A stretch of 64,000 bases of DNA from Streptomyces kanamyceticus. GTDB lineage: Bacteria; Actinomycetota; Actinomycetes; Streptomycetales; Streptomycetaceae. The DNA is taken from the NCBI RefSeq assembly GCF_008704495.1, contig NZ_CP023699.1:5828001-5892000 (forward strand). Reading direction: 5' to 3'. A program made the position numbers and the translations under genes. Of the stretch, positions 8,149 through 23,004 are shown piece after piece. Position 1 is the stretch's first letter. Every line of letters starts with the position of its first letter. The notes beneath the pieces are model-generated. The model was not told where the DNA came from, did no database searches, and worked only from the letters and a program-made list of their open reading frames with translations.

Positions 8149-8179
8149 GCAAGACGGAAGTAGTACGCGCATGAGCAAG
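8128..8179 (+). repeat. 26-bp tandem duplication at the fruR-fruK junction
   Basis: Bases 8128-8153 and 8154-8179 are identical. Each copy carries the last codons of fruR and an ATGAGCAAG start. The first ATG (8145, overlapping the fruR TGA) therefore opens a 9-codon ORF MSKTEVVRA whose TGA overlaps the second ATG (8171), the fruK start, giving two successive ATGA couplings. Confidence 0.9.
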
Positions 8180-9203: not shown

Positions 9204-10769
9204 ATGACCGACATGATCACTGCGGATCTGGTCGACCTCGAACTCGACCTGTCCGCGGAAACCAAGGAAGCCGCGGCCCGTTCGCTCGCCGAGCGCATGG
9301 TGGCGCTCGGCCGGGTGACCGACCTCGAGGGGTTCCTCGCCGACGTGGCGGCCCGCGAGGCGCAGATGCCGACCGGCCTGGACGGCGGCATCGGCATTCC
9401 GCACTGCCGCAGCGCGCACGTCACCGAGCCGACCCTGGCCTTCGGCCGGTCGGCCCGTGGCATCGACTTCGGCGCCCCGGACGGCCCCGCCGACCTGATC
9501 TTCCTGATCGCGGCTCCCGCGGGCGCGGACGACGCGCACCTGACGATCCTCTCGTCGCTGGCGCGGCAGTTGATGGACGGGGAGTTCACGGGGGCGCTGC
9601 GGGGCGCCGCCGACGCGGAGTCGGCGGCGGCACTGATCCGGGGCGACGAGCCCGCTACTGCTGTGGGCAGCAGTTCCGCTGGGGCGGAACGGGTGGGCAC
9701 AGCCCCCGGTGCGGAGCAAGATGACGATGGCACAAGCCCCGGCGCGGCCGACCCCTTCAGAATCGTCGCCGTCACCTCCTGCCCCACGGGCATCGCCCAC
9801 ACCTACATGGCCGCCGAGTCCCTGGAGAACGCGGCCCGCGCCGCAGGCGTGGAGATCACGGTCGAGACCCAGGGCTCGGCCGGTTTCACGCGCCTGGACC
9901 CCGCCGTCATCGCCGCCGCGGACGCCGTGGTCTTCGCCCACGACGTCCCCGTCAGGGACAAGCCCCGCTTCGCGGGCAAGCCCACCGTCGACGTAGGAGT
10001 GAAGGCGGGCATCAACCGCCCCGCCGAACTCATCGCGGAGGCGCGGGAGAAGGCGGCCAGGGGCGAGACCACAGCGCCGACGGGCCCCACCCCGGTGGAA
10101 GGCACCGGCGACGAGGGCGACGGCTACGGCACCAAGCTCCGCAAGTGGCTGATGTCCGGCGTCAGCTACATGGTCCCGTTCGTGGCCGCGGGCGGCCTCC
10201 TGATCGCCCTGGGCTTCGCCATCGGCGGCTGGAAGATCGACAAGGCTCCGTCCGTCGCCGAGCACTTCATCTGGACGGACCACACCAGCTGGGCCGCGCT
10301 CCTGTTCCAGATCGGCGGCCTCGCCTTCGCCTTCCTCGTCCCGGTCCTGGCCGGTTACATCGCGTACGGAATGGCCGACAGGCCCGGCCTCGTCCCCGGA
10401 TTCGTCGGCGGCTCGGTCGCGGTCACCATCAACGCCGGTTTCCTCGGCGGCCTCGCCGCCGGTCTGATCGCGGGCGCCGTGGTGCTGGGCATCCAGCGGG
10501 TCAGGATCCCCGCGGTACTGCGCGGCATCATGCCGGTCGTGGTGATCCCGCTGATCTCGTCGGCGGTCGTCGGCTTCCTGATGTTCCTCGTCGTGGGCAA
10601 GCCGATCGCGTCCCTGCAGAGCGCGTTGACGGACTGGCTGGAGGGCCTCTCCGGTGCCAACGCGATCATCCTCGGCGTCATCCTCGGCCTGATGATGTGC
10701 TTCGACCTCGGCGGACCAATGGTGTCCAGAGGCACATCAGGGCGAGTTCTAGGGAGTACACAGGTCTGA
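9204..10769 (+). CDS. fruA: Fructose PTS EIIABC component, 5' part, interrupted by the integrated element
   Basis: The ATG at 9204 has GAAGGAG at 9191-9197. Domains in order are EIIA (about 1-145; active His in IGIPHCRSAHV), a linker, EIIB (about 175-275; phospho-Cys in AVTSCPTGIAHTYMAAESL) and the first half of membrane EIIC (from SGVSYMVPFVAAGGLL). The reading matches the family to CFDLGGP, then at 10713-10717 enters element DNA (MVSRGTSGRV) and stops at 10769. The missing C-terminal EIIC resumes at 22486. The truncated EIIC is unlikely to transport fructose. The EIIA-EIIB linker contains a dispersed repeat (9661). Confidence 0.9.
   Translation: MTDMITADLVDLELDLSAETKEAAARSLAERMVALGRVTDLEGFLADVAAREAQMPTGLDGGIGIPHCRSAHVTEPTLAFGRSARGIDFGAPDGPADLIFLIAAPAGADDAHLTILSSLARQLMDGEFTGALRGAADAESAAALIRGDEPATAVGSSSAGAERVGTAPGAEQDDDGTSPGAADPFRIVAVTSCPTGIAHTYMAAESLENAARAAGVEITVETQGSAGFTRLDPAVIAAADAVVFAHDVPVRDKPRFAGKPTVDVGVKAGINRPAELIAEAREKAARGETTAPTGPTPVEGTGDEGDGYGTKLRKWLMSGVSYMVPFVAAGGLLIALGFAIGGWKIDKAPSVAEHFIWTDHTSWAALLFQIGGLAFAFLVPVLAGYIAYGMADRPGLVPGFVGGSVAVTINAGFLGGLAAGLIAGAVVLGIQRVRIPAVLRGIMPVVVIPLISSAVVGFLMFLVVGKPIASLQSALTDWLEGLSGANAIILGVILGLMMCFDLGGPMVSRGTSGRVLGSTQV
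9661..9710 (+). repeat. Dispersed hairpin repeat embedded in the fruA EIIA-EIIB linker
   Basis: The segment holds CTGTGGGCAG, then the hairpin GTTCCGC/GCGGAAC (9673-9679 with 9684-9690), then GGGTGGGCACAGCCCCCGG. A near-identical copy is intergenic at 28228. Here it is translated in frame as a Gly/Ser/Ala linker. I recognise the sequence as a common Streptomyces intergenic repeat. Confidence 0.7.
10704..10738. other. attL site
   Basis: fruA sequence reads to GGCGGACC (10710-10717), followed by element arm DNA. The element half-site ends with GCACATC at 10732-10738, 14 bases from the core. The presumed crossover dinucleotide is GG at 10713-10714. Confidence 0.75.
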
Positions 10770-10827
10770 CGAGTGGCCGCATCCCGTCGCTGCAAGCCCC
10801 TGACGACGAACTTGGCGCACGGTAAAA

Positions 10828-10848
10828 CCCCCGGCGTGATGCCGGGGG
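10828..10848 (-). terminator. Terminator of the XRE-DUF397 operon
   Basis: Perfect 8-bp stem CCCCCGGC/GCCGGGGG with a GTGAT loop. On the minus strand it is followed by TTTTAC, as expected for an intrinsic terminator, 39 bases after the DUF397 stop. Confidence 0.75.
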
Positions 10849-10886
10849 CTTGTGACCATTGCCCTCTGCGTAGGGCACGGACAGTT

Positions 10887-11060
10887 CTAGCGCTGCGTGG
10901 CGTCTATGAAGGCACCCCATGCCGCAGTACCGAAGGCGAGCGCCGGACCCGTCTCGTTGTCCTTCGTGTCACGCACCATGACCGTCTTCGGGTCGGTGGC
11001 AACCTCAACACAGTTGTCGTTGTTGCCGCTGTATGTGCTCTTATGCCAATTGGGTGTCAT
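10887..11060 (-). CDS. DUF397 family small protein
   Basis: 57 residues: MTPNWHKSTYSGNNDNCVEV then DPKTVMVRDTKDNETGPALA and FGTAAWGAFIDATQR. The W-KSTYSGN-NCVEVA and VRDTKD patterns are those of DUF397, small proteins encoded beside XRE/DUF5753 regulators throughout Streptomyces and often considered partners or antagonists of that regulator. Its ATG overlaps the TGA of the upstream regulator (ATGA), so the two are translationally coupled. It is the leftmost gene of the element and ends before a terminator. Confidence 0.88.
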   Translation of the reverse strand: MTPNWHKSTYSGNNDNCVEVATDPKTVMVRDTKDNETGPALAFGTAAWGAFIDATQR

Positions 11061-11866
11061 CTGTGCTTCTCCAGTGCGTTCCGCATGAGCTCTGCTGACT
11101 CGTTGGTCCCCAGGGCGTCAGAGTGCAGCCGATCATAGATCCTCTGCCAGTTGTCGACGTTGCCCGGTTCCTCGAAGAACGCGCCGGTGTTGAACCCTTC
11201 CGAGTACGCCGCGCGTTCGCCATCCGGCATGGTCAGCAGACTGAACGAGCCGGGGATGCATGGCTTCGTCGCCGGTAGTACCTGAATGTTGATGAACGGG
11301 CGCTGCATCGAGGTAAGTAGATGCTCTATCTGTGCCGCCATCGTCTCTACAGACCCTTGCACGCGGTTGAGGGCGGTTTCATCTAGTAGCACCCACAGCC
11401 ATGGTGGCTCTTCCCGCTCAAAAATCTCTTGGCGTTCCATGCGTCGCGCGACGCTGTCGGCAAGGTCTCTACTACCGTCGGGGACGCCGAGACTCATGAT
11501 TGCGTTCGCGTACTCCGCCGTCTGCAACAGGCCTGGGACGGTCAGCGAGAACTCGTGGATAGTGCGCGCGCTTTGTTGTCGCTGAAGGAACGTCTGTGCG
11601 TAGTCCTGGAAGCCGGACATGCCAACGAAGTGCCACAGTTCCACAAGAGTGCCGTTGAGACCCAAGATCGCGTCAAGTTGCTGCGTCATCCGGAGACTTG
11701 GGGGATCGGTTGCGTTCTCGATCTGGGAGATCCGGTTTTGCTTGGTCGGGATTTTTGCGGCTAGCTGCGCCTGTGTCCAACCCAGCACTTCGCGCCCCTT
11801 CTTGACCCTGTACCCGAGTAGGTGAGCCACAGAGGTTGTGGGGTCAAGTTGATTCGCAGCTGGCAT
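11057..11866 (-). CDS. XRE family regulator with DUF5753 domain
   Basis: 269 residues from the ATG at 11866, chosen because TGGAG lies six bases upstream; two earlier in-frame ATGs lack a site. The N-terminal Cro/CI-type helix-turn-helix (about 15-65) reads VKKGREVLGWTQAQLAAKIP and KQNRISQIENATDPPS. The C-terminal DUF5753 region includes VPGLLQTAEYANAIMS, LDETALNR and INIQVLPATKPCIPGSFSLL. The family includes WhiJ-like developmental regulators paired with DUF397 proteins. It is probably cargo affecting host development or the element's own state; that role is inference. Confidence 0.85.
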   Translation of the reverse strand: MPAANQLDPTTSVAHLLGYRVKKGREVLGWTQAQLAAKIPTKQNRISQIENATDPPSLRMTQQLDAILGLNGTLVELWHFVGMSGFQDYAQTFLQRQQSARTIHEFSLTVPGLLQTAEYANAIMSLGVPDGSRDLADSVARRMERQEIFEREEPPWLWVLLDETALNRVQGSVETMAAQIEHLLTSMQRPFINIQVLPATKPCIPGSFSLLTMPDGERAAYSEGFNTGAFFEEPGNVDNWQRIYDRLHSDALGTNESAELMRNALEKHR

Positions 11867-11983
11867 GATCATCTCCATATCAAGGGCTCCGTGTTGATAC
11901 CGCTACCCCTAGTCACCCTGGTTGGAACGGGCCAAGCTCGAACCAGAACAGCGACAGGTCAACTAGGCACCAAGGACCGGTAG

Positions 11984-12175
11984 ATGACGGCACAGTCAGT
12001 CATGGATCAACTTGTCTGGGACGCGTCACGTGATCGCGTGGGCAAGGTCGTTGGTCGTGAATGCGGGTTGTTCCTACTCCGCTCCCTCGGTGGTGGCGAG
12101 GAATGGGAAGCGTCTCTTGGTGACCTTGCGAACGTCAGCTTGACAGATGCTCCCAAGGGAGGTGGCAGCAAGTGA
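11984..12175 (+). CDS. Small hypothetical protein of the element
   Basis: 63 residues, MTAQSVMDQLVWDASRDRVG then KVVGRECGLFLLRSLGGGEE, no family recognised. It is the first of three genes linked by overlapping stop and start codons (12172-12175 GTGA, 12531-12534 GTGA). It is divergent from the XRE regulator with 117 bases between starts, so that region may be controlled by it. Confidence 0.6.
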   Translation: MTAQSVMDQLVWDASRDRVGKVVGRECGLFLLRSLGGGEEWEASLGDLANVSLTDAPKGGGSK

Positions 12176-12534
12176 CCGATGCGACGGAGTTCGATTCCGG
12201 TGAAATCGTGGTGGACACGACGCGGGCAAAGATCGTTAAGGTCGCTGGTGAGGGCGGCTCAGGCACGCTGGTCGTGATGCGACCCTCCGGCCTCGCGTGG
12301 GTTGTGGGTGCCGAAGACCTCCGGTACGCGACAGAAGTTGAGCGTCGGGACTGGGATCTCACGGTTCGGATGCTCGGCGGCATGAAGGGCAGCAGGCGGC
12401 TCCCCGCACCGGTTCCATGCTGTGACCACTGCGGGGCGCTCCAATCGGAGCGTGCCAGTCTGCTTGCGCGCAACGAATCAACCGACAAGATCGACGAGCA
12501 AATGGTTGTGCACGCCGCTAGGGCCCACCCGTGA
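12172..12534 (+). CDS. Hypothetical protein with CxxC motif
   Basis: 120 residues from a GTG that overlaps the previous TGA, with AAGGGAGG at 12155-12162. The sequence has a beta-rich N-terminal half (GEIVVDTTRAKIVKVAGEGG, WVVGAEDLRYATEVER) and CCDHCGALQ near residue 83, resembling half of a zinc ribbon. No family is recognised. Coupling to both neighbours suggests one functional unit. Confidence 0.65.
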   Translation: MTDATEFDSGEIVVDTTRAKIVKVAGEGGSGTLVVMRPSGLAWVVGAEDLRYATEVERRDWDLTVRMLGGMKGSRRLPAPVPCCDHCGALQSERASLLARNESTDKIDEQMVVHAARAHP

Positions 12535-12668
12535 CCACGCGGAAGGGGCGGCCTCGCAGGCTCGACCCGGACGGCGCCATCGTGAGCGGCCTTCTCGTCC
12601 TGATGGGGTGTGGATCAATCGCCTTCTTGGTCTACCTCATCGCGACGAACCAGATAGGCACTCGGTGA
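12531..12668 (+). CDS. Small single-pass membrane protein
   Basis: 45 residues from a GTG overlapping the preceding TGA: VTTRKGRPRRLDPDGAIVSG then LLVLMGCGSIAFLVYLIATN. A basic N-terminus precedes one hydrophobic helix of about 20 residues. The function is unknown. The overlap-coupled position after two element genes supports it being real. Confidence 0.55.
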   Translation: MTTRKGRPRRLDPDGAIVSGLLVLMGCGSIAFLVYLIATNQIGTR

Positions 12669-12685
12669 TCGTTTAAAAACAGACT

Positions 12686-12738
12686 CCACCCCTGGCCGTT
12701 GCTTGACCGTGGATAGCAGCCGCTTCGGCTGGGGGTGG
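12686..12738. repeat. Stem-loop element copy A
   Basis: CCACCCC (12686-12692) pairs with GGGGTGG (12732-12738). The interior reads TGGCCGTTGCTTGACCGTGG and ends with an AGCCG/CGGCT hairpin. A related element with the same closing stem and a similar interior occurs at 13510. Confidence 0.5.
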
Positions 12739-12758
12739 TCCAATCAGGTATAGGGAAC

Positions 12759-13181
12759 GTGCCCAAAATCAGTGATAAGCAGGCTGCTGCCATGAAGCGT
12801 CGATATGAGGTCGACAAGCAGTCGTCGCAGCAGATAGCGAGAGAGTTTGGGTTCAGTCGCGAAGGCGTAGCGAAAAAGCTTCGTCGAATGGGCACTAAAT
12901 TTCGCTCGGTCGGTAAGCCTGCCCTCTCTAAGGATGACGCGAAGTCTCGGGCCATGGCTACGCGCTATTACCGGGATGGGCTGACGCAGAGGGAGGTGGC
13001 CGCAGAGTTCGGTGTACATAACTCCACGGTCAGCAGGCGGATTGCTCACCTGAAGCCACCTACTGACTCCGAGTCCTTCCTGTTGGGCGGTGAGGTTGAG
13101 ACAAGAGGCGACAGCGAGAGGAGTGGCCATGTCAGTATCGGAACTGCTGAGTCTGATCGTGCAGCGAGGGGGCAAAGTTGA
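12759..13181 (+). CDS. Double helix-turn-helix DNA-binding protein of the element
   Basis: About 140 residues from the GTG at 12759 (VPKISDKQAAAMKRRYEVDK); an in-frame GTG at 12735 is possible but overlaps the stem of a hairpin. Two homeodomain-like helix-turn-helix units are visible: SSQQIAREFGFSREGVAKKL (about 23-42) and LTQREVAAEFGVHNSTVSRR (about 73-92). Such paired motifs occur in resolvase-like and transposase-linked DNA-binding proteins, but no catalytic domain is present. The C-terminus overlaps the next gene by 53 bases. It probably regulates the element. Confidence 0.65.
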   Translation: MPKISDKQAAAMKRRYEVDKQSSQQIAREFGFSREGVAKKLRRMGTKFRSVGKPALSKDDAKSRAMATRYYRDGLTQREVAAEFGVHNSTVSRRIAHLKPPTDSESFLLGGEVETRGDSERSGHVSIGTAESDRAARGQS

Positions 13182-13365
13182 CCCGGAGTCGTGTCTTCAG
13201 TGCGCGACGCTGCGTAAGAAGATTCGGGCGGCCGACCGAAGTAGGGATCTGAGGAGTGCCCGCGAGGTTGTCTTAGCCATGGCAGTGCACAAGACCTATG
13301 GACATCCGGAGGACGGTCGTTCCGTCGGAACTGACGTCAGTCTTAGAGCGCCAAGGGTCCTGTAG
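13129..13365 (+). CDS. Small hypothetical protein of the element
   Basis: 78 residues from the ATG at 13129, which has GAGAGGAG five bases upstream (MSVSELLSLIVQRGGKVDPE, CLQCATLRKKIRAADRSRDL). It has a CLQC pair and a basic helical middle. No family is recognised. Leu49 is a TTA codon (13273-13275), so full expression may need the bldA tRNA. It overlaps the preceding helix-turn-helix gene and ends 10 bases before the tRNA-like sequence. Confidence 0.55.
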   Translation: MSVSELLSLIVQRGGKVDPESCLQCATLRKKIRAADRSRDLRSAREVVLAMAVHKTYGHPEDGRSVGTDVSLRAPRVL

Positions 13366-13375
13366 GCGCTCTCTA

Positions 13376-13471
13376 TCCCTTGTAGCTCAATGTGGAAGAG
13401 TCTGAACGTAGGGGTATTGGAATCGCACCCCGGGGCGTTCGGGGATCTCGGTTCGACTCCGAGTAATGGAC
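13376..13471 (+). tRNA. tRNA-like gene with expanded or atypical anticodon arm
   Basis: Acceptor TCCCTTG (13376-13382) pairs with TAATGGA (13464-13470), with one C-T mismatch and a terminal G-T. U8/A9 are present. The D arm is GCTC/GAGT (13385-13388, 13398-13401) with A14, R15, GG and A21. The T arm is CTCGG TTCGACT CCGAG (13447-13463) with a perfect TTCGANN loop. The middle is abnormal. TGAAC/GTTCG (13403-13407, 13437-13441) encloses a 29-base loop instead of 7. Alternatively CCCCG/CGGGG (13428-13432, 13440-13444) forms a class II variable arm, with TTGGAAT (anticodon GGA) in a poorly paired anticodon arm. No CCA is encoded. It may be a tRNA-like RNA or a decayed tRNA. Confidence 0.5.
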
Positions 13472-13504
13472 TTCCCCCTCGGTCGTCGGCGATCGAGGGG
13501 GAAG
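13471..13504 (+). terminator. Strong hairpin immediately after the tRNA-like sequence
   Basis: Perfect 11-bp stem, CTTCCCCCTCG (13471-13481) with CGAGGGGGAAG (13494-13504), and a 12-base loop. It abuts the acceptor end of the tRNA-like sequence and could terminate or help process its transcript. Confidence 0.6.
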
Positions 13505-13509
13505 CGATA

Positions 13510-13555
13510 CCACCCCCGGCAGTTGCTGACGGTTCCCGGTTCCGGCTGGGGGTGG
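13510..13555. repeat. Stem-loop element copy B
   Basis: CCACCCCC (13510-13517) pairs with GGGGGTGG (13548-13555). The interior GGCAGTTGCTGACGGTT resembles copy A at 12686 (GGCCGTTGCTTGACCGT) and both end in a TTCGGCT-like segment, so the two appear related in sequence as well as fold. Confidence 0.5.
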
Positions 13556-13604
13556 ACAACCTTCTTGTAGCTCAAGCCCCGGGCTACTAGCGGCACCCTC
13601 AACC

Positions 13605-13635
13605 GCCCCGTCAGTACCCCCCGTGCTGACGGGGC
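13605..13635. other. Hairpin in the non-coding region 13366-13905
   Basis: GCCCCGTCAG (13605-13614) pairs with CTGACGGGGC (13626-13635), loop 11. Downstream, AGAGGGG/CCCCTCT (13682-13688, 13699-13705) forms another. No convincing gene lies between 13366 and 13905. The stretch is the tRNA-like sequence plus consecutive hairpins and then the operator at 13783. Confidence 0.5.
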
Positions 13636-13782
13636 TTCCTCCGTGCAGGTCCAAGCCCCTGGCCACCGCGTAAGTGAGAGGAGAGGGGCTCCAACTCGCC
13701 CCTCTTGCCCTCGCCCCCGTCGAACGCGGTCGTTCTGTGCTGGCCACCGATCTCTAACGGCACTTTCAAGGAGACCCCCCCC

Positions 13783-13810
13783 AACCACAGAACCGGTTAT
13801 GTGGTTGACC
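13783..13810 (+). promoter_or_regulatory. KorSA-type operator and -35 box before the SH3 gene
   Basis: 13783-13806 is a 24-bp palindrome with one mismatch, built on ACCGGTTATGTGG. It shares AACCGGTTATGTGG with the perfect palindrome at 16495. TTGACC (13805-13810), a plausible -35, overlaps its right end, and GTGGTTGAC recurs at 16456. This fits repression by the GntR protein encoded at 15564. Confidence 0.6.
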
Positions 13811-13905
13811 CATAGGTTGCGAGTGTTCGATGCTGGCCACTCAACCGGATGAGTCGCTGACCGTCGGTCGGCGGCTCGTCTCAACTCAACCTGAGAGGTC
13901 GTCAG

Positions 13906-14316
13906 ATGATGGGAACCAAGCTGCGGACGCTGATCGTTTCCGGTGCGCTGGTGGCGGGTGTCGGCATGACGGGGGCGGCGGTCGCCTCGGCTGCGCCGCT
14001 GCCGGGGCCGGATGGTGTCGGCTCGTCGCGCAACAGTGCTCCGTCCGGGCATGAGAGGAGTGCCTACTCCTCCGGTGGCAAGGCCAAGCGCGGTGACGTC
14101 GCTTCGGTGACGGTGGACGGTTTGCGGGTGCGCACAGGGCCCGGCACGTCCCGGCGCATCCTGGGGCAGTTATACGAGGGTGAACGCGTGACGCTGATCG
14201 GGGCGCGACAGGACAAGCGCGGGCAGATATGGCACCGCGTGGTCCTCAAGCGGCACTCGGCGGGCGGGCTGCCGCGCGGGTTCAAGGGCTGGGTGACCGC
14301 CGCGTATCTGTACTGA
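13906..14316 (+). CDS. Secreted SH3b-domain protein
   Basis: 136 residues. GAGAGG lies seven bases before the ATG at 13906. There is a signal peptide (basic MMGTKLRTL, hydrophobic core, ASAAP cleavage region near residue 29) and a bacterial SH3-like fold (about 65-136: VTVDGLRVRTGPGTSRRILG, YEGERVTLIGARQDKRGQIW, GWVTAAYLY). SH3b domains commonly bind cell-wall peptides. Leu89 is TTA (14170-14172), a bldA-dependent codon. A palindromic operator precedes it and a strong terminator follows, so it is a single unit probably repressed by the KorSA-like protein. Confidence 0.8.
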   Translation: MMGTKLRTLIVSGALVAGVGMTGAAVASAAPLPGPDGVGSSRNSAPSGHERSAYSSGGKAKRGDVASVTVDGLRVRTGPGTSRRILGQLYEGERVTLIGARQDKRGQIWHRVVLKRHSAGGLPRGFKGWVTAAYLY

Positions 14317-14350
14317 GCGATCCGCTCTGGCCGTGTGGCTGGGTGAGTTG

Positions 14351-14382
14351 GGCCCCCTCTCTGCTGCGGCGGAGAGGGGGCC
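14351..14382 (+). terminator. Terminator after the SH3 gene
   Basis: Perfect 11-bp stem GGCCCCCTCTC/GAGAGGGGGCC with a 10-base loop, 35 bases after the stop codon. The rest of 14317-14608 shows no supportable gene. Confidence 0.75.
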
Positions 14383-14608
14383 TGCGCCGTGAGTGCGTCA
14401 CGGGCGCTCGACATATGCCACGAGAACGGACGTTTGCATCTTGATTTGCAATTGAGTACTCCAACCTACTGCGTTGCAGGGTGACCGCGCGTAGCATCTG
14501 GGGCGCGGTACGGATGACATGCCGCCCAATTCCGGGCGGACGTGGGCCACTTGCGCCACTCTGCGCAAGGTCGGCGAGACCCTGAGGGCCTGACCAGGGA
14601 GGGTGCAA

Positions 14609-14944
14609 ATGACTGGCACGCGGGGGGATGACTGCAATGGCATATCTGATGAGATGACGTTCACGCGGGGCATGGACTACGTGTCGGCGTGGCAGGCGGC
14701 TCACGAAGCGGCCTTAGCGATCAACAGAGCCGCTGAGACGGTGGGGTTAGGCCGTGATGTGGTGAGGGCGATACCGCACGCGTCGGCCGTGGGTGAGTCT
14801 GTGGTGTGGCTGCGTCCGGCCGATGCCCGGATGATCGCGGCGGCACTGGATGCGAGGAACGGCGCGCACCCCTGCGGGGGCGGGGCAAGTACGGCTCGTT
14901 GGGGTACGGCGAACGCTGAGGAGGGCGGGAATGTCGCGCGATGA
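14609..14944 (+). CDS. Hypothetical element protein
   Basis: 111 residues from the ATG at 14609, six bases after GGGAGG; a GTG at 14603 is too close to that site. The central region (MDYVSAWQAAHEAALAINRA, VWLRPADARMIAAALDAR) looks helical and soluble. No family is recognised. It contains two TTA leucine codons (14714-14716 and 14747-14749), a high number for a Streptomyces gene of this size. Its end overlaps the next small gene by 14 bases. Confidence 0.6.
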   Translation: MTGTRGDDCNGISDEMTFTRGMDYVSAWQAAHEAALAINRAAETVGLGRDVVRAIPHASAVGESVVWLRPADARMIAAALDARNGAHPCGGGASTARWGTANAEEGGNVAR

Positions 14945-15098
14945 GTGGCGGACCAAGGCGGGCTCGCGGGTGAGGATCAAGACCACGCGGCGCGGTGAGT
15001 TCATCGACTGTGACGGCTGTCGGCGCGACATCAAGATCACGGGTGTCGGTCCGGCGATGTTCGCGGCCCGGCAGCATGCGCAGGAGTGCCGGAAATGA
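14931..15098 (+). CDS. Small CxxC (zinc-ribbon-like) mobile-element protein
   Basis: 55 residues from the ATG at 14931 with GGAGG upstream: MSRDEWRTKAGSRVRIKTTR, RGEFIDCDGCRRDIKITGVG and QHAQECRK. CDGC plus a C-terminal His/Cys pair suggests a single zinc site. Similar tiny proteins are common in actinomycete ICEs. It overlaps the preceding gene, and its TGA overlaps a following ATG at 15095. Confidence 0.65.
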   Translation: MSRDEWRTKAGSRVRIKTTRRGEFIDCDGCRRDIKITGVGPAMFAARQHAQECRK

Positions 15099-15193
15099 CT
15101 CCGCAGATGATCGTCTCTGGTCTGCGGCCTGCACCACCGAAAGTCAGCCCCAGCGGCGGCGCGGAAATCCGCGGTGCGGCAGTGGCCACCTGA
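15095..15193 (+). CDS. Possible 32-codon ORF
   Basis: The ATG overlaps the stop of the previous gene as ATGA and the frame reads MTPQMIVSGLRPAPPKVSPS to a TGA at 15193. There is no recognisable domain. Coupling is the only support, and it could be a chance frame. Confidence 0.25.
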   Translation: MTPQMIVSGLRPAPPKVSPSGGAEIRGAAVAT

Positions 15194-15401
15194 ACCCTGT
15201 CCCGGCCCTGGCCACGCTACCCATGTCTTGTCCACCCCCGACGACCTTGGGACGCCGACGCTCGCGCGGTCCCCGTCGGGGCACCGCAGGCCCCCCGGGG
15301 CCGAGGAGACGCCGAACCCGGTGCGGTCATCATCGGCGCTCTGACCTGGAGTTTGGCCACCGGCCGGCACCTGGGTCCTGGGGGTGGGGCGGGGCAGAAC
15401 G

Positions 15402-15433
15402 AAGGCCCCTGCGGGATGCATCGCGGGGGCCTT
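15402..15433. terminator. Hairpin in the gap before the KorSA-like gene
   Basis: A 12-bp stem (15402-15413 with 15422-15433, one G-T) with a GGATGCAT loop lies between the converging small ORFs and korSA. The gap 15194-15563 otherwise has no convincing gene. It also holds GGTCGGGACCGG-type repeats (about 15444-15490) and a GGCGCGCC GAA GGCGCGCC hairpin near 15525-15545. Confidence 0.5.
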
Positions 15434-15563
15434 CTGCTGCTGGGACCGGTCGGCGGTCGGGCGGTGGTCGTCCGGTCGGGACCGGCCGAAGGCCGCATGC
15501 CCGACCGGGACGGCCAAGCCGCCCGGCGCGCCGAAGGCGCGCCCTGGAGCAAGTAGAGAAGAG

Positions 15564-16361
15564 TTACGCCGATGCGGACCGGCGCGGGGTCCGCTGGGTG
15601 GCTGCCTTGGCCGCAGCCACCGCAAAGACCAGCTCGCACGAGGCGGGTGCCCTCAACTCCTCGCAGAGCAGCGGGTGTTCCTCACCGTCCCGGGTCTCGG
15701 CGGTAATGCGGTAGCTGATCAGGAGCGGGCTGGAATCGGTCAGCCCCAGGGTGATCCGCTCGTCGGGGTAGGGGGCCCGTGCGGTGACGTGCTCCTTGAA
15801 GGTGAGGGTCTTGCCCGCCTCGGAGAGCTGCTTGAGGAGATCGCTGGGAGGCACGTCCGGGACCTCGGCGAGCGAGGGCACCTCGGCGGCCGTGGCGAGC
15901 GGGATGAGCATCCGGTGGGCGGCCCGTACCCCCGTGGCGGGGTCGCTGAGGAGTCGGTCAACGCTGATCGCATCCTGGTCTGGCTGACCGAGCAGTGCCG
16001 CAACGCGCCCTTCCAGGGTGGTGCGCGTGACGGCGGGCGGCTCGTGCTCGGGCAGATCCGACAGTCGCCACGCCTTCCCGGAGCGCTGAACGGACCGGTC
16101 GATGGTGACTGCCGGGGCGGCGCCGCCCTGGTCCCGCACGAGGGTCCCCTTGCCCTGCTGGGTGTAGACCAGGCCCATGCTGCGCAACTCGGCGATGGCG
16201 GAGCGCACCGTGTGCTTGCTGACCCCGTAGGTGTCGGCGAGATCTCCGTCAAAGGGGAGGAGGTCACCGGCCTGGTAGTCGCCGTTCTTGATCTCTGCGG
16301 CTAGCTGCTGCGCCATCTCCAGGTACATGGGGCGCGGGCGCGCTAGGGGCTTCTTCGTCAT
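15564..16361 (-). CDS. GntR family repressor with UTRA domain, KorSA-like
   Basis: 265 residues. The N-terminal GntR winged helix (about 10-80: PRPMYLEMAQQLAAEIKNGD, FDGDLADTYGVSKHTVRSAI, GLVYTQQGKGTLV) is followed by a UTRA-type effector domain (TRTTLEGRVAALLGQPDQDA to LLISYRITAETRDGEEHPLL). In pSAM2, KorSA represses pra and itself and so controls replication and transfer. The position here, divergent from the SCO3933-tra-rep operon with a perfect 26-bp palindrome between, matches that role. A second operator precedes the SH3 gene. Confidence 0.85.
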   Translation of the reverse strand: MTKKPLARPRPMYLEMAQQLAAEIKNGDYQAGDLLPFDGDLADTYGVSKHTVRSAIAELRSMGLVYTQQGKGTLVRDQGGAAPAVTIDRSVQRSGKAWRLSDLPEHEPPAVTRTTLEGRVAALLGQPDQDAISVDRLLSDPATGVRAAHRMLIPLATAAEVPSLAEVPDVPPSDLLKQLSEAGKTLTFKEHVTARAPYPDERITLGLTDSSPLLISYRITAETRDGEEHPLLCEELRAPASCELVFAVAAAKAATQRTPRRSASA

Positions 16362-16455
16362 GCGCTCTCCTCAGGGAGTGGCTGAATGCGCGCGTGTTCC
16401 ACGGGCTTTCGTCGGCGCTCTGTGCTAGCGGCTGTTGCGCCACAGATGAGCATAA

Positions 16456-16520
16456 GTGGTTGACGCTCACCGGCATAGAGAGCAACTCTTGTGGTCTCCA
16501 CATAACCGGTTATGTGGAGA
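16456..16520 (+). promoter_or_regulatory. korSA-tra operon control region with 26-bp palindrome
   Basis: 16495-16520 is a perfect palindrome of 26 bases whose centre reads ACATAACCGGTTATGT. Upstream, GTGGTTGAC (16456-16464) contains a TTGACG -35-like box and repeats the promoter arrangement at 13801-13809. It is the probable main operator of the GntR repressor for both divergent directions. Confidence 0.7.
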
Positions 16521-16552
16521 TGAGGTCTAACGAAGGAAGTGGGTGAAGTTCC

Positions 16553-16933
16553 ATGCAGAACAAGCCGGTTGACGTGAGTCGGCTGGGGTCCATGAGGTGC
16601 GTGATCGCACCGGAAGCGCGGGTCACCCCGGAAGGGGAGGTGCGCAGGGACCGGGAGGGAAACCCGCAGTGGATCACCGGTTTATCGGTGAGACAGGCGG
16701 AAGGGCGCCGTACGGACGTGATCCACGTGATCGTGTCCGGCATCGAGCCGCAGGGCGTGATCGAGGGCGCGGAGGTGCGGGTCACGGGTCTGTGGGCCAA
16801 TGAATGGGCGGTCGACGGCCGGACGGGCACATCGTGGCGGGCAGATGCGATCACCCCCGTGCCGACGGCGAGTTCGGCGCCCTCGGCCTCGCCCTCGGCG
16901 GCGGGCGGTCGGGGCAAGGGTGGTGACTCCTGA
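16553..16933 (+). CDS. SCO3933-family conserved AICE protein
   Basis: 126 residues, MQNKPVDVSRLGSMRCVIAP with GLSVRQAEGRRTDVIHVIVS and WAVDGRTGTSWRADAITPVP. This pattern is that of the SCO3933-family regulatory proteins that regularly lie between the KorSA-type repressor and the tra gene in actinomycete ICEs; the biochemical role is not known to me. Its Ser/Ala/Gly tail looks disordered. Leu44 is TTA (16682-16684). It starts the tra operon, and its TGA overlaps the next ATG (TGATG). Confidence 0.75.
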   Translation: MQNKPVDVSRLGSMRCVIAPEARVTPEGEVRRDREGNPQWITGLSVRQAEGRRTDVIHVIVSGIEPQGVIEGAEVRVTGLWANEWAVDGRTGTSWRADAITPVPTASSAPSASPSAAGGRGKGGDS

Positions 16934-17355
16934 TGGACCGCTACTTCTGGCACCTGTCGCCCTCGCAGGCGCGGGGACTGGCCTGCGTGGTGTGCGGCGT
17001 CGACCTGGGCAAGCAGATGCGGCACGTTCCGGTCGGACGTGATCCGGCTACCGACCGGGAGGTGTACGCCTGTGCGGAGCCGTGCGCGGTGAGGATCGCG
17101 GAGGAGTCGGAACGCCTGGCGCGTGAGATGCGGGAATCGGCGGGACAGGCGGACGACAGCGGCCTGGGGGCCGACGGCGAGTTCGGGCGCCTGCTGCGGG
17201 ACCTGCGCATTCTGGTGGGCGCGGAAGCGCTGCTCGCCACCGTGGACGACCTGGCCACCCTCCGGTTCCTGTTGCAGATGGCGGCGGTGCAGTCCGAGCA
17301 GGCCATGATCCGCTCGCGCAAGCTCCTTGCCCGCATGACGCTGCGGGAGGACTGA
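16933..17355 (+). CDS. Element protein with N-terminal zinc-binding cysteines
   Basis: 140 residues. WHLSPSQARGLACVVCGVDL and REVYACAEPCAVRIAEESER provide CxxC and CxxxC pairs (about residues 18-45), likely one structural zinc. The rest is helical (LLRDLRILVGAEALLATVDD). It is coupled at both ends by TGATG overlaps to the SCO3933-like gene and to traSA, so it belongs to the transfer operon. Comparable proteins occur at this place in related elements; the function is unknown. Confidence 0.7.
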   Translation: MDRYFWHLSPSQARGLACVVCGVDLGKQMRHVPVGRDPATDREVYACAEPCAVRIAEESERLAREMRESAGQADDSGLGADGEFGRLLRDLRILVGAEALLATVDDLATLRFLLQMAAVQSEQAMIRSRKLLARMTLRED

Positions 17356-18692
17356 TGCCCGGCTCCTTGATCGTCTGGATCCTCTCGGCACTGCTGACCC
17401 TGGGTGCGCTGACCCAGAGTTGGTGGGAGCCCAAGTTGGCGGCGCGGGGCGTCAACACCGCTGACTGGCCCTGGCGGTGGTGGCTGCTGGGCTACCCCCG
17501 GGTCGTCCTACGGATGCGGCTGACTTGGCGTCAGTTGTCTTTGCTCAACACCCTCTCGGTCAGTCACCGCCCGACCGGGCGCCTGCTGGGTGACGTGGTG
17601 GTGCAAGGTCAGGCGCTGCGCCCCAGGACGCCCCGGTTGCGCATCGCCCGGCCTACCCGCAACGGGCTGACCGTCACTGTGCTGTTGCACCCCGGGCAGA
17701 CCCCTGCGCCGTACTTCGCGGCGGCGGGCGCGATGGAACACGCCTGGCGCGTCTACCGCGTCCGGGTCGCCTCACCGCGTCGCGGGTTCGTCCAGATCAC
17801 CGTGATCGCCCTGGACCCGTTGACCGGGGCCCGACCGCAGGGCCGTCCTGATCCGCCGGAACTGCTGGCGGCGGACGTGGGCACCCTGGAGGACGGCCCG
17901 GCCTGGATCATCAACCTGCGGCGGGTACCGCACTGGCTGGTGACCGGGGCCACCCAAAGCGGCAAGTCGTCCCTCCTGGCGGCCCTGGTGCGCGGGCTGA
18001 GCAGACAGCGGGTCGCCCTGGTCGGCATCGACTGCAAGGGCGGCATGGAACTCGGCCTGTTCGGCGGCCGGTTGACCAAGCTGGCCACCGACCGCACACA
18101 GGCCCTGGTCCTGCTCCTCCACCTGGTGGAGGAGATCCGCGAACGCATGGCACTGTGCCGGGCTGAGGGCGTGCGCTCCATCTGGGACCTGCCCGAGATC
18201 GAGCGTCCGGTGCCGGTCGTCGTGATCGTCGATGAGCTGGCAGAGCTGTACCTGACCGATGGCTCCCGCGAAGAGCGGGACGAGGCGGAGCAATGCGGGG
18301 TACTGCTGCTGCGGCTGACCCAGCTCGGCGCGGCCCTCGGCCTGCACCTGGTGGTGGCCGGACAGCGGGTCGGCTCCGATCTCGGCCCCCGGGTCACCGC
18401 GCTGCGGGCTCAACTGGGCGGCCGGATCGCGCATCGGGCCCACGATGAAGCGTCGGCACAGATGACGCTGGGCGACATCAACCCGGACGCGGTGATCGTC
18501 GCGCAGACCATCACCGAAGACGAGAAAGGCGTAGCGGTCTACGCCTCGGGCGGCCAATGGGTCCGGGCTCGCTCGCACCTCGTCACGGCGTCCGACGTCG
18601 CGGTCATCGCCACTGCTCCCGCTCCGGTGGACCCGTTCCTGCGGGACCGGTCGGCCACCGTGTCCGTGCGGAAAGGCGGGACGGCGCCATGA
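17355..18692 (+). CDS. traSA: TraSA/TraB-like conjugative FtsK/SpoIIIE translocase
   Basis: 445 residues. Hydrophobic N-terminal segment PGSLIVWILSALLTLGALTQ, then an FtsK-type motor with Walker A GATQSGKSS (about 196-204) and Walker B VVVIVDELAELY (about 285-296), and a sensor region LVVAGQRVGSDLGPRVTALR. In pSAM2 and related plasmids a single protein of this kind moves double-stranded DNA between mycelia by binding clt repeats. Overlapping stop/start codons tie it to its neighbours. The N-terminus is short, so one membrane anchor is likely. Confidence 0.88.
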   Translation: MPGSLIVWILSALLTLGALTQSWWEPKLAARGVNTADWPWRWWLLGYPRVVLRMRLTWRQLSLLNTLSVSHRPTGRLLGDVVVQGQALRPRTPRLRIARPTRNGLTVTVLLHPGQTPAPYFAAAGAMEHAWRVYRVRVASPRRGFVQITVIALDPLTGARPQGRPDPPELLAADVGTLEDGPAWIINLRRVPHWLVTGATQSGKSSLLAALVRGLSRQRVALVGIDCKGGMELGLFGGRLTKLATDRTQALVLLLHLVEEIRERMALCRAEGVRSIWDLPEIERPVPVVVIVDELAELYLTDGSREERDEAEQCGVLLLRLTQLGAALGLHLVVAGQRVGSDLGPRVTALRAQLGGRIAHRAHDEASAQMTLGDINPDAVIVAQTITEDEKGVAVYASGGQWVRARSHLVTASDVAVIATAPAPVDPFLRDRSATVSVRKGGTAP

Positions 18693-18880
18693 CGGAAAGC
18701 ACGATCGTCATCATCGACCTTTTCCTAGTGCTGTACGCGTTCATGCTCGCCCGGTCCCGGGAGATCAAGACCTATCAGGTGATCCTGATCGGGCTCTGCG
18801 GATTCCTCATGGCCATGACGCCCTTCGGCTATCCGGTCTGGTGGAGCTTCCTGTTCGTCGGAAACCATCTATTCGGCTGA
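18689..18880 (+). CDS. Small two-helix membrane protein of the transfer operon
   Basis: 63 residues from an ATG overlapping the traSA TGA: MTESTIVIIDLFLVLYAFML, then QVILIGLCGFLMAMTPFGYP and a Trp/Phe-rich end. Two membrane helices are predicted. Small hydrophobic proteins after tra in Streptomyces plasmids are often spread (Spd) proteins that help intramycelial plasmid spreading; that assignment is by position and character, not by sequence match. Confidence 0.65.
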   Translation: MTESTIVIIDLFLVLYAFMLARSREIKTYQVILIGLCGFLMAMTPFGYPVWWSFLFVGNHLFG

Positions 18881-18901
18881 CACTCAACGAAAAGGACGGC
18901 A

Positions 18902-19084
18902 ATGGAGCTCAACACCCTTACCCGGTCGGTCGCGGAAGTCGCGCGGATGCGGGCCGCGTACCCGGGAAGCGTCTGCAAGGTGACCCGAAAGCAAGACGGC
19001 AAGCGAATCAACGGATACGTCCCGGCGCAGTGCGCCAACCCGTACGGGACCGATCCGGCCTCAAGACGGGCCAGTCCCCATTGA
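18902..19084 (+). CDS. Small hypothetical element protein
   Basis: 60 residues, MELNTLTRSVAEVARMRAAY, PGSVCKVTRKQDGKRINGYV, PAQCANPYGTDPASRRASPH. AAAAGGA lies upstream of the ATG. It is basic with two cysteines and no recognised family. It lies between the small membrane protein and rep; 19085-19177 contains no gene. Confidence 0.55.
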   Translation: MELNTLTRSVAEVARMRAAYPGSVCKVTRKQDGKRINGYVPAQCANPYGTDPASRRASPH

Positions 19085-19177
19085 GGTGTGAAATCCAGAA
19101 TTGACGCTCTCACTCATCGAATATTTCTCTGCTGCGCATCTTTGCCATAGCTGAGCCACGACATATCAGGAGTTGCC

Positions 19178-19267
19178 ATGACCGCTGTGCCTACCCCTCG
19201 CGAAAGGGGACCTCCGCATGTATCCGACCACGGACAAGGCGCGGCGTTCAGTGCTCGATCAGGCTGA
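19178..19267 (+). CDS. 29-codon leader ORF overlapping the rep start
   Basis: The ATG at 19178 has AGGAG five bases upstream, an ideal site. The frame MTAVPTPRERGPPHVSDHGQ ends in TGA at 19267, 50 bases inside rep in another frame. It could tune Rep synthesis by coupling or interference. Supported only by the ribosome-binding site and position. Confidence 0.4.
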   Translation: MTAVPTPRERGPPHVSDHGQGAAFSARSG

Positions 19268-20663
19268 GCGTCTGCGCCTTCTCTCATCCACCGAGCGCGA
19301 TCTGATCCGGCTCGTACATGAGCCGGGATTCCCGCGCTGGCTCGACCAGATCCAAGCCACCGGCGGCTGTGCCCACCCCATCTACCTGAGCGGGCACACC
19401 ACCGTGCGCGACGCGGCCACCGGCACCGTGCTGCGCCACTACGACACCAGCGGCGAGCCTGGCGGGCGGATGCCGGTCCGCTGCCGCAACCGCCGCGCAT
19501 CCCGCTGCCAGCCCTGCGCACGCCTGCATGCGGGCGACACCTTCCACCTCGTGCGCGCGGGCCTGGTCGGCGGCAAGGGCGTTGCTGACCGCGTCCAGTT
19601 GCACCCCCGGCTCTTCGTCACCTTGACCGCTCCCTCCTTCGGCAGCGTGCACCGGTCCGGCACTGCCAACTCGGCCTACTGCCACCCCCGGCGCGAGGGC
19701 GGGCAATGCTCACACGGGCGGCCGCTGGGATGCGGCAGGCAGCACTCCGACACCGACCCGGCACTAGGCCAGCCACTCTGCCCGGACTGCTACGACTACA
19801 CAGGCCACGTCCTGTGGCACGCGTCCGCTGGCCTCTTGTGGAGCCGCTACGTCCACACCGTGCGGCGGCACCTGGCCTCGGCCGCAGGCATCACACAGAC
19901 CCGGCTTCGCGAGCACCTGACGCTCTCCTTCGCCAAGGTCGCCGAGTACCAAAAGCGCGGGGCAGTGCACTTCCATGCCGTCGTCCGTCTGGACGGTCCA
20001 CTCGGTCCTGCATCGCCCCCACCCTTGTGGGCCACGACGGAACTCCTGGAAGCCGCCGTGCGGTCCGCTGCGGCTTCTGTAGAGGTCCGTACGCCCTACT
20101 CTCCGGCGACGGGTGAGCGGGTCATTCGCTGGGGCGTTCAGCTCGACGTGCACGCGATCCGCAGCAGGGCCTTCACGGAATCCGCGGTGACCGATGACGC
20201 TGTTGCGGCCTACGTCGCCAAGTACGTATCCAAGTCTGTCGGCGACGCGGGCGGGATCGACCATCGGATCACGGACGTCGACAGCATCCGGCTGGCTCCG
20301 GTCAACGCCCATCTACGCGCCCTCATGGGCACCTGCTGGCGCCTGGGCGGCCTGCCCGAACTGGCGGGTCTGAACCTGCGCTCCTGGACTCACACCCTCG
20401 GCTTCCGGGGCCACGTCCTGACCAAGTCCCGCTGTTACTCCACGACCTACGGAGCACTCCGGAACGCACGGACCCACTACCGCAGCACGGACAGACCGCC
20501 CGACCCGGAGAACCCGACGGTCACGGAATCGACCTGGCGCTACGTCGGCTCGGGGCACTCCCTGGCGGAAGCCGAACTAGCGGCAGGCATCGCGGAAGAC
20601 CTCGCGCAGTCTCGGGAGCTCTACGCCGAAGTCGGAGAAGCTGGGGGTGGCGGTTATGGATGA
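19218..20663 (+). CDS. repSA: RepSA-like rolling-circle replication initiator
   Basis: 481 residues. Cys-rich N-terminal region (VRCRNRRASRCQPCARLHAG, CSHGRPLGCGRQHSD, PLCPDCYDYTGHV), then the metal-binding HUH-type motif GAVHFHAVVRLDGP and the downstream catalytic-tyrosine region VAAYVAKYVSKSVG. This is the architecture of pSAM2 RepSA and actinomycete ICE Rep proteins that nick the double-strand origin. It should make the excised circle replicate. AAAGGGGA lies nine bases before the ATG, and an upstream leader ORF overlaps it. It is read with tra and followed by a small CxxC gene. Confidence 0.88.
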   Translation: MYPTTDKARRSVLDQAERLRLLSSTERDLIRLVHEPGFPRWLDQIQATGGCAHPIYLSGHTTVRDAATGTVLRHYDTSGEPGGRMPVRCRNRRASRCQPCARLHAGDTFHLVRAGLVGGKGVADRVQLHPRLFVTLTAPSFGSVHRSGTANSAYCHPRREGGQCSHGRPLGCGRQHSDTDPALGQPLCPDCYDYTGHVLWHASAGLLWSRYVHTVRRHLASAAGITQTRLREHLTLSFAKVAEYQKRGAVHFHAVVRLDGPLGPASPPPLWATTELLEAAVRSAAASVEVRTPYSPATGERVIRWGVQLDVHAIRSRAFTESAVTDDAVAAYVAKYVSKSVGDAGGIDHRITDVDSIRLAPVNAHLRALMGTCWRLGGLPELAGLNLRSWTHTLGFRGHVLTKSRCYSTTYGALRNARTHYRSTDRPPDPENPTVTESTWRYVGSGHSLAEAELAAGIAEDLAQSRELYAEVGEAGGGGYG

Positions 20664-20811
20664 ATGCCATAAATGTCGAGCTCGGTTGAATCGTTGGGGT
20701 AGAGAGAGCCTGGCCAAGGAAGCTTGGAAAGCAAAGCAGTTGGCGAAGATGCCTGACTACAGTGATGAGTTCCGTAGGAGGCTCCTGCGGGGCTGGGGCC
20801 TAGAACTGTAG
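20656..20811 (+). CDS. Small CxxC protein downstream of rep
   Basis: 51 residues: MDECHKCRARLNRWGRESLA, KEAWKAKQLAKMPDYSDEF and a basic end RRRLLRGWGLEL. It overlaps the end of rep by 8 bases. The CHKC motif and basic composition suggest nucleic-acid binding. Its base composition is lower in GC than rep. It is the last gene of the rightward operon before a terminator. Confidence 0.6.
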   Translation: MDECHKCRARLNRWGRESLAKEAWKAKQLAKMPDYSDEFRRRLLRGWGLEL

Positions 20812-20819
20812 AGAAACGT

Positions 20820-20847
20820 GGGAGCCCTTCGATGATTGAGGGCTCCC
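20820..20847. terminator. Hairpin between the rep operon and integrase
   Basis: Perfect 9-bp stem GGGAGCCCT/AGGGCTCCC with a 10-base loop, placed between convergent genes and six bases from the integrase stop. It is probably bidirectional. Confidence 0.7.
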
Positions 20848-20853
20848 CGGATT

Positions 20854-22440
20854 TCAGTCTTCCTCTACCCATCCGATATCGACGGAGTTGGGGTCGAAAT
20901 GCCTTCCGCGGGGAGCTTTCTCCACGATGACGGCTTTGATGAGTTTCCCCATCTCGTGGCGCTTCTTGTCCGTCGTGTAATCCACCCACTCCTTCAGGAG
21001 GGCTGGGCTGGTCTTCCTGTGCTCCTCGATCTTTGCGGATAGCTCGCGGACCTGATGCCGTAGCTTTCCCCGCTCCTCTTCAAGTTCAGAAATAAGATCC
21101 AGGGCTTGGGTTGTGGAGATTCGCCGCTTTGCCTCAGGCTTCCTTCGTGCCATCACTTCTTCGATCTCCTTGGAGATTTCCGAAAGGCGAGATTCGGCGG
21201 CAGTGATTTTCCTTGTCTCCGTGGCGCCGGTTCGCTTTGCCTGTCGTGCGATCTTCTTGGCGAATGCCTCTAAGTAAAGCTCTTCTACGTACTCTTCAAG
21301 TTTTGCTGCCGAACGTGTAATTCCTCCACATCCGTTGTTGGTTATGGGGCACCGATAGAACGGGACTTTTTCGCCCTTGATTGTGCGTGCAGAGGCGGTA
21401 AGGCGAGTGCTGCATTTTCCGCACCGAAGGAGGCCAGATAGGAGGTGTGTTCTGTGCCCGGGCCTACTGCCTCCGGTTTGCCCCTTCTGCTTGGCGGCAT
21501 CTTTTCGCTTCTCTAGAACTCGAATAGCTCGCCAATATTGTTCAGGGGTGACGAGACGCTCCCATTCCCCGATGACGGGTTTCCCTTTTGTGTCGTACAT
21601 GATGATGTCGGGCCCCCATGGGGGAGGGTTGCCCCGGCGTTCGCGCGTAGGCATGTATGCCTTGTACCCGCAATTGCGCGGGTGGGTGATTCGCAGGATG
21701 ACGGTCTTATAGAGGACCGGCTTTCCGTTCTTTCCAAGAATCCCGGCTTCTGCCCAGTCTGCCTGAATCTGCGAAACTGTAGCGCCATCACCGATGTCGA
21801 GGATTGCCTTCTTCCGCAGCTCGGCGTACGGCTGGACCAATCTCCCATTCTCGTCCCATCCCCAAGCTCGACGGCCGGTGTGATCCTTTCCGTCAACGGC
21901 CTTGTGGCGGTTGGCGTCTGCCTTGCGGCGTCGGATCGAGGATGCCTCAACTCCACCCATGACGGCTTGCATGACGAACATTGCGCGGCCATTATCGGTG
22001 CTGAGGTCGGTGCCGCCCGTGACGGCGCGACCAACAAGCTTGTCGTTACGCTCGAATATCTGACATACGCGGGCCGCGTCGAATGCCTGCCGCGCTACGC
22101 GGTCAGAGTGCTTGAAGACGAAGCCGTCGATAATGCCTGCTTGCAAGTCCTTGAGGAGCTGTTCAAAGTCCTTGCGCACGATGAAGGGGTCGGACGCCGA
22201 CGTGTCGTTGTCGTCGTAGACCCTGACGATTTCTCCCCTCAGGTCGGCCGCGAGAGCGTGGCATTCCTTGAGTTGGTTGGTGACTCCCTCTCGGCTGAGC
22301 TCACCCGTCTCGGGGTCTCGGTCGTCATCGGAGATCCGAAGATAAGCACCTAACTGGAGCACGCGCGGGGCCTCCTCCTCAACGTCGTTGAGGGGGAGGG
22401 TAGTTGCGTTCTGGCTGGTCAGTGGGCGAGTTGTTGACAT
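20854..22440 (-). CDS. int: Large serine integrase (site-specific recombinase)
   Basis: 528 residues. The N-terminal resolvase domain has YLRISDDDRDPETGELSREG with the presumed nucleophile Ser37 and FVFKHSDRVARQAFDAARVC. A recombinase domain follows (RRKADANRHKAVDGKDHTGR, LRITHPRNCGYKA), then a zinc ribbon (LLRCGKCSTRLTAS with CPITNNGCGG) and a coiled coil (about 410-490). This is the phiC31-type large serine integrase class, which recombines short attP and attB sites without supercoiling. It starts 43 bases from the attR core, the usual position. Leu30 is TTA (22351-22353). Excision would need a recombination directionality factor, not identified here. Confidence 0.93.
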   Translation of the reverse strand: MSTTRPLTSQNATTLPLNDVEEEAPRVLQLGAYLRISDDDRDPETGELSREGVTNQLKECHALAADLRGEIVRVYDDNDTSASDPFIVRKDFEQLLKDLQAGIIDGFVFKHSDRVARQAFDAARVCQIFERNDKLVGRAVTGGTDLSTDNGRAMFVMQAVMGGVEASSIRRRKADANRHKAVDGKDHTGRRAWGWDENGRLVQPYAELRKKAILDIGDGATVSQIQADWAEAGILGKNGKPVLYKTVILRITHPRNCGYKAYMPTRERRGNPPPWGPDIIMYDTKGKPVIGEWERLVTPEQYWRAIRVLEKRKDAAKQKGQTGGSRPGHRTHLLSGLLRCGKCSTRLTASARTIKGEKVPFYRCPITNNGCGGITRSAAKLEEYVEELYLEAFAKKIARQAKRTGATETRKITAAESRLSEISKEIEEVMARRKPEAKRRISTTQALDLISELEEERGKLRHQVRELSAKIEEHRKTSPALLKEWVDYTTDKKRHEMGKLIKAVIVEKAPRGRHFDPNSVDIGWVEED

Positions 22441-22461
22441 CGGTGGTCTCCTTGATGCCTT

Positions 22462-22494
22462 GATGTGCTTTCAAGGTATCTAGGTGGCCCGCTG
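22462..22494. other. attR site
   Basis: The element half-site begins GATGTGC (22462-22468), 14 bases before the core GGTGGCCC (22483-22490). From GG at 22486-22487 onward the sequence is fruA in frame (GGC CCG CTG AAC). Joined with the attL arm it gives a symmetric attP. Confidence 0.75.
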
Positions 22495-23004
22495 AACAAG
22501 GTCGCGTACGCCTTCGCGGTCGGCGGCCTGGCGCACCCGACGGACGGCAGCCTCAAGGTCATGGCCGCGGCGATGGCGGCGGGCATGGTCCCGCCGCTCG
22601 CCATGGCCCTGGCCACGACCGTACGCGGGCGGCTCTTCACGAAGACCGAGCGCGAGAACGGCAAGGCCGCCTGGTTCCTCGGCGCCTCCTTCATCACGGA
22701 GGGCGCGATCCCGTTCGCCGCGGCCGACCCGCTGCGCGTGATCCCCGCCTCGATGGCGGGCGGCGCGGTCACGGGTGCCTTGTCGATGGCGTTCGGCTGC
22801 ACGCTGCGCGCCCCGCACGGCGGTGTCTTCGTGGTCCCGCTCATCGGCCAGCCGCTGCTCTACCTGGTCGCCATCGCCGCGGGCGTGTGCGTCTCGACGG
22901 TCGTGGTCGTCCTGCTCAAGGGCGCGCGGAAGCAGGTGCCTTCGGAGCCGGAGGCCGCCGAGGCCGCGTCGGCCGAGGGCGAGCGAGTCCCCGCGGCCGT
23001 CTGA
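22486..23004 (+). pseudogene. fruA: fruA 3' fragment (C-terminal EIIC) right of attR
   Basis: Reads GPLNKVAYAFAVGGLAHPTD through SFITEGAIPFAAADPLRVIP to the natural fruA C-terminus, completing the EIIC domain begun before 10713. A GTG at 22465 inside the element arm is in frame with it (VLSRYLGGPLNK), so a fragment could be made if transcribed from element DNA, but no ribosome site is evident. Precise excision would restore a full-length fruA. Confidence 0.88.

Follow-up and report, generated by a model that had tools for sequence, protein, structure and literature searches.

What has split the fructose phosphotransferase system (PTS) gene fruA of Streptomyces kanamyceticus, and is the gene disrupted or reversibly switched? 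We examined a window of 64,000 nucleotides (contig NZ_CP023699.1, positions 5,828,001 to 5,892,000; G000:C1:5828001-5892000) within a single-contig genome of 10,133,897 bases. There fruA, which encodes an EIIABC protein and adjoins fruK, is cut by an element of 11,773 bp, measured between two GG cores. This is very probably an actinomycete integrative and conjugative element (AICE) of the pSAM2/SCO3937 kind that entered fruA at an attachment site (attB) through its own large serine integrase, with crossover at the GG. It looks as if the gene has been disrupted, not reversibly switched.

The insertion and the restored frame are read directly from the two parts of the gene. The FruA reading frame is normal up to CFDLGG at the core 10713-10714, and continues as GGPLNKVAYAF from 22486 to a stop at 23004. 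The GG is common to both fruA ends (10713-10714 and 22486-22487), and joining them there yields 675 amino acids (aa) without an internal stop; the two parts meet at position 201 of the TIGR01427 profile, where the 5' part ends. These positions agree with those of an earlier reading of the letters alone (hereafter the initial annotation), which had also proposed that joining restores the frame. The 5' part is matched in 298 of 392 genomes of the genus at E 1e-60 (297 besides its own). In each of the 29 loci examined from these other genomes (L044-L072), fruA aligns through the joint without a stop; a relative whose fruA diverges at this point without any element, which the initial annotation held would speak against insertion, is not among them. 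An open frame shorter than 600 aa occurs in the genome studied here only, among the matches listed that reach the joint. That a misjoin split the gene on paper while fruA is intact in the cell is practically negligible as an explanation: no point was found in its favour, the genome is one 10.13 Mb contig, and the independent genome of Streptomyces graminilatus has the same site and the same geometry of attachment (att) sites.

The att geometry can likewise be read at both ends. The rebuilt attP is 50 bp long and carries GATGTGCTT and GATGTGCCT, one per side and each starting 24 bp from the GG, the outer motif of the att sites being GATGTGC(T/C)T. The attP of S. graminilatus (locus L006) has GATGTGCTT at 24 bp on both sides, and the single readable side in a further genome of the genus, G108, has GATTTGCTT also at 24 bp. 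In the left half of attB, GATGTGCTT lies 19 bp from the GG in both the window and S. graminilatus. A structure-based model of serine integrases places symmetric outer motifs in attP and the same motif 5 bp further inward in attB (PMC3783163; for this and all papers cited below we draw on the available excerpts), and the 24 bp of attP against the 19 bp of the attB left half is this published shift, as expected of large serine integrase att sites. The rebuilt attP has its best dyad centre exactly at the GG both in the window (12 of 25 positions paired, a value reached by 203 of 20,000 base shuffles of this attP) and in S. graminilatus (17/25). The initial annotation had suggested aligning fruA in relatives for the same attB, and the 40-bp site is indeed contiguous in all 29 relatives examined, with 35-40 of 40 bases identical (40/40 in L045) and GATGTGCTT kept in every one. 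A second PTS gene in the genome matches attB at just 28/40 bases and without the motif, a difference that would account for fruA-ABC being the target.

The element contains what distinguishes an AICE, namely an integrase with flanking att sites, a RepSA-type replication protein and an FtsK/SpoIIIE-type transfer protein (Table 1), and its frames for integrase, Rep and Tra are complete. The integrase combines a Resolvase domain with a zinc ribbon, and S37 (in YLRIS), which we take to be the catalytic serine, and C340, C343, C364 and C371 are invariant in 7/7 close relatives; a conserved serine and four such cysteines are expected of a large serine integrase. The Pfam gene set thereby bears out the initial annotation's AICE with a serine integrase and Rep, TraSA and KorSA homologues, the Kor and Tra names being given by likeness. 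KorSA as a name for the GntR regulator follows an analogy with SCO3932 (PMC8584621).

Several observations weigh against this assignment. Pfam does not report the Recombinase domain PF07508, precomputed for many 40-45% identical relatives, for the integrase of the element, and no solved structure matched this integrase by sequence at E 0.001. The SCO3933-like match (NF051478) scores 67.1 bits, under the cut-off of 80, and no directionality factor was identified. The motif lacks a convincing copy in the right half of attB (5/9, at 16 bp).

Table 1. Features of the split fruA locus and of the inserted element (window coordinates).
Feature	Position	Strand	Support
fruK, 1-phosphofructokinase-like, intact, upstream of fruA	8171..9145	+	324-aa open reading frame; name presumed from gene position and family knowledge
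fruA 5' part: EIIA, EIIB, start of EIIC	9204..10714	+	NCBIfam TIGR00829 and TIGR01427 (EIIB and EIIC) above cut-off; TIGR00848 (EIIA) slightly below, 102.1 vs cut-off 103.5
attL: 19 bp of attB, core GG 10713-10714, 24 bp of attP	10694..10738	+	
Helix-turn-helix (HTH; XRE-type) and DUF5753 regulator	11057..11878	-	Pfam
Small HTH protein	12735..13181	+	Pfam and PHROGs HTH matches
SH3_3-domain protein, cargo	13906..14316	+	Pfam
GntR regulator, KorSA-like	15564..16361	-	Pfam GntR E 7.5e-16; 58% relative in G097
SCO3933-like (Pra-like) protein	16553..16933	+	NCBIfam NF051478; 63% relative in G097
FtsK/SpoIIIE-type transfer protein, TraSA-like	17355..18692	+	Pfam PF01580 E 6.8e-25; 68% relative in G097
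RepSA replication initiator	19218..20663	+	Pfam PF20199 E 2.5e-159; 76% relative in G097
Large serine integrase, 528 aa	20854..22440	-	Pfam Resolvase and Zn_ribbon_recom; PHROG 95 integrase
attR: 24 bp of attP, core GG 22486-22487, 19 bp of attB	22462..22506	+	
fruA 3' part: remaining EIIC	22488..23004	+	TIGR01427 profile positions 201-346

A tRNA gene was considered as the target and rejected, ARAGORN giving just one call inside the element (13376-13471) and a tRNA-Ala at 54401 outside it. The call inside the element is tRNA-like with a four-base anticodon and is probably spurious. Direct repeats that might mark a clt site for transfer came only as two-copy families within 400 bp, none convincing.

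Elements of this kind have been described. SCO3932-SCO3937 of S. coelicolor is a pSAM2-like AICE remnant with a serine integrase in place of the tyrosine integrase typical of AICEs, and, like the window element, it has Kor, Pra, TraSA and RepSA homologues, with kor and pra divergent (PMC8584621). The window element differs in having fruA as its target and both att sites readable, the likeness between the two being drawn from the published description. pSAM2 and the tRNA-targeting AICEs share with it RepSA, an FtsK-type Tra and GntR control, but they use tyrosine integrases and tRNA genes (PMC3218068). The A118/phiC31-type integrases have the same catalytic and zinc-ribbon domains, symmetric outer motifs in attP and a 5-bp inward shift in attB (PMC3783163), whereas the attB of the window has a clear motif in one half only. 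The initial annotation knew of no description of serine-integrase elements with a PTS gene as target, most characterised AICEs using tRNA genes. This seems to stand for fruA as an attachment site, which appeared in none of the titles and abstract openings of the literature searched (subscription journals lay mostly outside its scope), and the available part of PMC8092301 yielded no fructose-gene site. It needs qualifying for the class of target, as serine-integrase AICEs that likewise disrupt a protein-coding gene are already in print, in other genera and at other targets: Frankia Faln2929 (in an endonuclease gene), Mmar2129, Mav3790 and Srot1958 (PMC3218068). AICEs in protein-coding genes also appear in PMC9513070, the available text of which does not state the integrase type. 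Thus, fruA seems newly recognised as a target gene, in an element of a known kind.

Close copies of the integrase are rare. Among the 392 genomes, 56 (including its own) have a match at E 1e-30, but just two of the others are close: G108 (67% identity) and G348, which has a fragment 76% identical over 129 residues. Full-length integrases come next at 39-44%. At E 1e-80 among 150 relatives (44 genera tallied), we recovered its own copy and one 41% relative, and no others. A scan of GTDB for close integrases gave a single locus, L006 of S. graminilatus (65%). Of 7,995 candidate proteins scored in a wide search, 63 were listed at E 1e-40; five of these besides its own, P0002-P0006, are 62-83% identical. 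The close named relatives are Streptomyces throughout. Annotated phages (255 records) and plasmids (13 records) matched the integrase at less than 60% identity in all cases, and IMG/VR viral contigs contained no stretch matching the patterns for its close relatives. All four clade copies with a known location (the window, S. graminilatus, G108 and G348) are at fruA, a set that leaves out P0002-P0006, whose genomic context could not be read.

These four copies sit in different surroundings. Joining the fruA parts of S. graminilatus likewise leaves an open frame through the site, and its element measures 10,486 bp from core to core. The island (L006:2556-14646) carries genes for a major head protein, an HNH endonuclease, a replication-initiator-like protein and a transposase; nothing on it matched the Rep, Tra or Kor of the window element at E 1e-4, and the XRE regulator of that element had just a 23% match. 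It is a phage-derived island that uses the same fruA site as the AICE of the window. Of fruA, G108 keeps the 3' part, together with the integrase; the homologue that best matches fruK there is 43% identical and contains a stop, and the genome has no match to the FruA query (5' part; 0 matches, with 41/41 candidates scored); thus, the fruA PTS is dispensable in at least this genome. In G348, which keeps a 77% fruK, the integrase fragment adjoins codon 83 of the fruA 3' part, the 5' part is reduced to 59-60 residues, and the crossover point is no longer readable. Both are remnants in which fruA was destroyed after insertion.

The S. kanamyceticus copy of fruA bears no such marks. The ratio of nonsynonymous to synonymous substitution rates (dN/dS) of the split gene is 0.15-0.20 against five intact relatives, which compared with one another (ten pairs) give 0.18-0.24; for the window copy of fruK it is 0.14-0.23. 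Relaxed selection is not seen in the split fruA; thus, either the insertion is recent or the element is still excising, two cases that dN/dS does not separate. It is unlikely that the element is a stranded relic, no longer able to excise, with fruA a pseudogene that has yet to decay. The decay of related insertions in G108 and G348 and the failure to identify a directionality factor would fit such a history, but the frames of integrase, Rep and Tra run their full length, the two att sites are undamaged and neither half of fruA shows decay.

Some serine recombinase elements interrupt a gene in frame, as do those of the skin and fdxN types, the former in sporulation genes. The initial annotation suggested that excision could act as a reversible switch of fructose use. 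In the fuller form considered here, excision would be regulated, for example in response to sugar or during development, and would turn fruA back on, much as with skin-type elements; the exact restoration of the fruA frame fits this. The low dN/dS of the split gene is also compatible with this proposal, but we regard it as very improbable, and nothing indicates regulated excision. The insertion is sporadic, with one intact and two remnant cases of the integrase clade in the 392 genomes; none of the 29 relatives examined has an insertion at fruA, where programmed excision would call for a conserved element; and fruA was lost after insertion in two lineages. In contrast to skin and fdxN types, the window element carries replication and transfer genes, and nothing in it points to programmed excision (the XisF model gives 52.4, its cut-off being 375). 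The genome also encodes an intact fructose-family EIIBCA of 689 aa (domain order B-C-A; G000:C1:6122502-6124571, L005:3003-5072) about 0.28 Mb from the split fruA. This protein is 43-44% identical to FruA over the matched stretches and, by family, is a putative fructose PTS. The suggestion that the host cannot use fructose while the element is in place is not supported. An intact second fruA, which the initial annotation had said would tell against its reading, is present to this extent only: a homologue at that identity, with fructose as its putative substrate.

An AICE in G097 (L040:10789-18679) shares both the backbone of the window element (Rep 76%, Tra 68%, Kor 58%) and its gene order, but its integrase is only 39% identical and sits at another gene; therefore, the integration module has been exchanged. 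Swapping of integration modules among AICEs has already been published (PMC9513070).

The next four full-length integrases (39-44%) all adjoin ahpC (L038/G289, L040/G097, L041/G306 and L039/G029). Beside them is a LysR gene, presumably oxyR. Three of the four integrases (G289, G097 and G306) have next to them a piece of AhpC, 40-59 residues long, and a full-length ahpC whose N-terminus differs is found 12.5, 20.7 and ~54 kb off, respectively, on the same contig (far-side loci L092, L094 and L093). In G029 (far-side locus L091), a full-length ahpC adjoins the integrase and no AhpC fragment was found. The simplest reading is that the ahpC-sited elements supply a replacement 5' end that regenerates ahpC. 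Unlike these, the fruA element regenerates no target, and fruA is truly cut.

Given the analyses presented above, we propose that the AICE integrated through its large serine integrase at a 40-bp attB, located on the conserved FDLGGP-NK codons of fruA, with crossover at the GG, splitting FruA within its EIIC domain. The element retains genes for replication of the AICE type (RepSA), for FtsK-type transfer and for control by GntR. The sequence itself shows the insertion, the restored frame, the gene set, the att geometry, the remnants and the recurrence at fruA; from it we infer integrase activity, excision, transfer and phenotype, and the element is probably self-transmissible. Excision should restore fruA exactly, and would be expected upon mobilisation of the element rather than upon the fructose need of the cell. 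In other lineages the insertion ended in the loss of fruA. The host may bear the cost of insertion because the group can do without the fruA PTS and because this genome has a second fructose-family PTS. We also considered a broader proposal, which we find quite improbable, that fruA is a docking site common to unrelated elements with one integrase clade, here an AICE and a phage-derived island, that in this strain excision is still frequent enough to keep it under purifying selection, and that the activity of the element sets the fraction of the mycelium that can import fructose by FruA.

Taken as an insertion by an AICE with its own integrase, the locus adds to the Streptomyces attachment sites a recurrent, near-invariant site in a protein gene, mapped to the dinucleotide. 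The fruA integrase and its att sites could serve strain engineering as a new integration system. One integrase clade is common to an AICE and a phage-derived island, and the loci described here give examples of module exchange between elements and of gene loss as the end point of an insertion.

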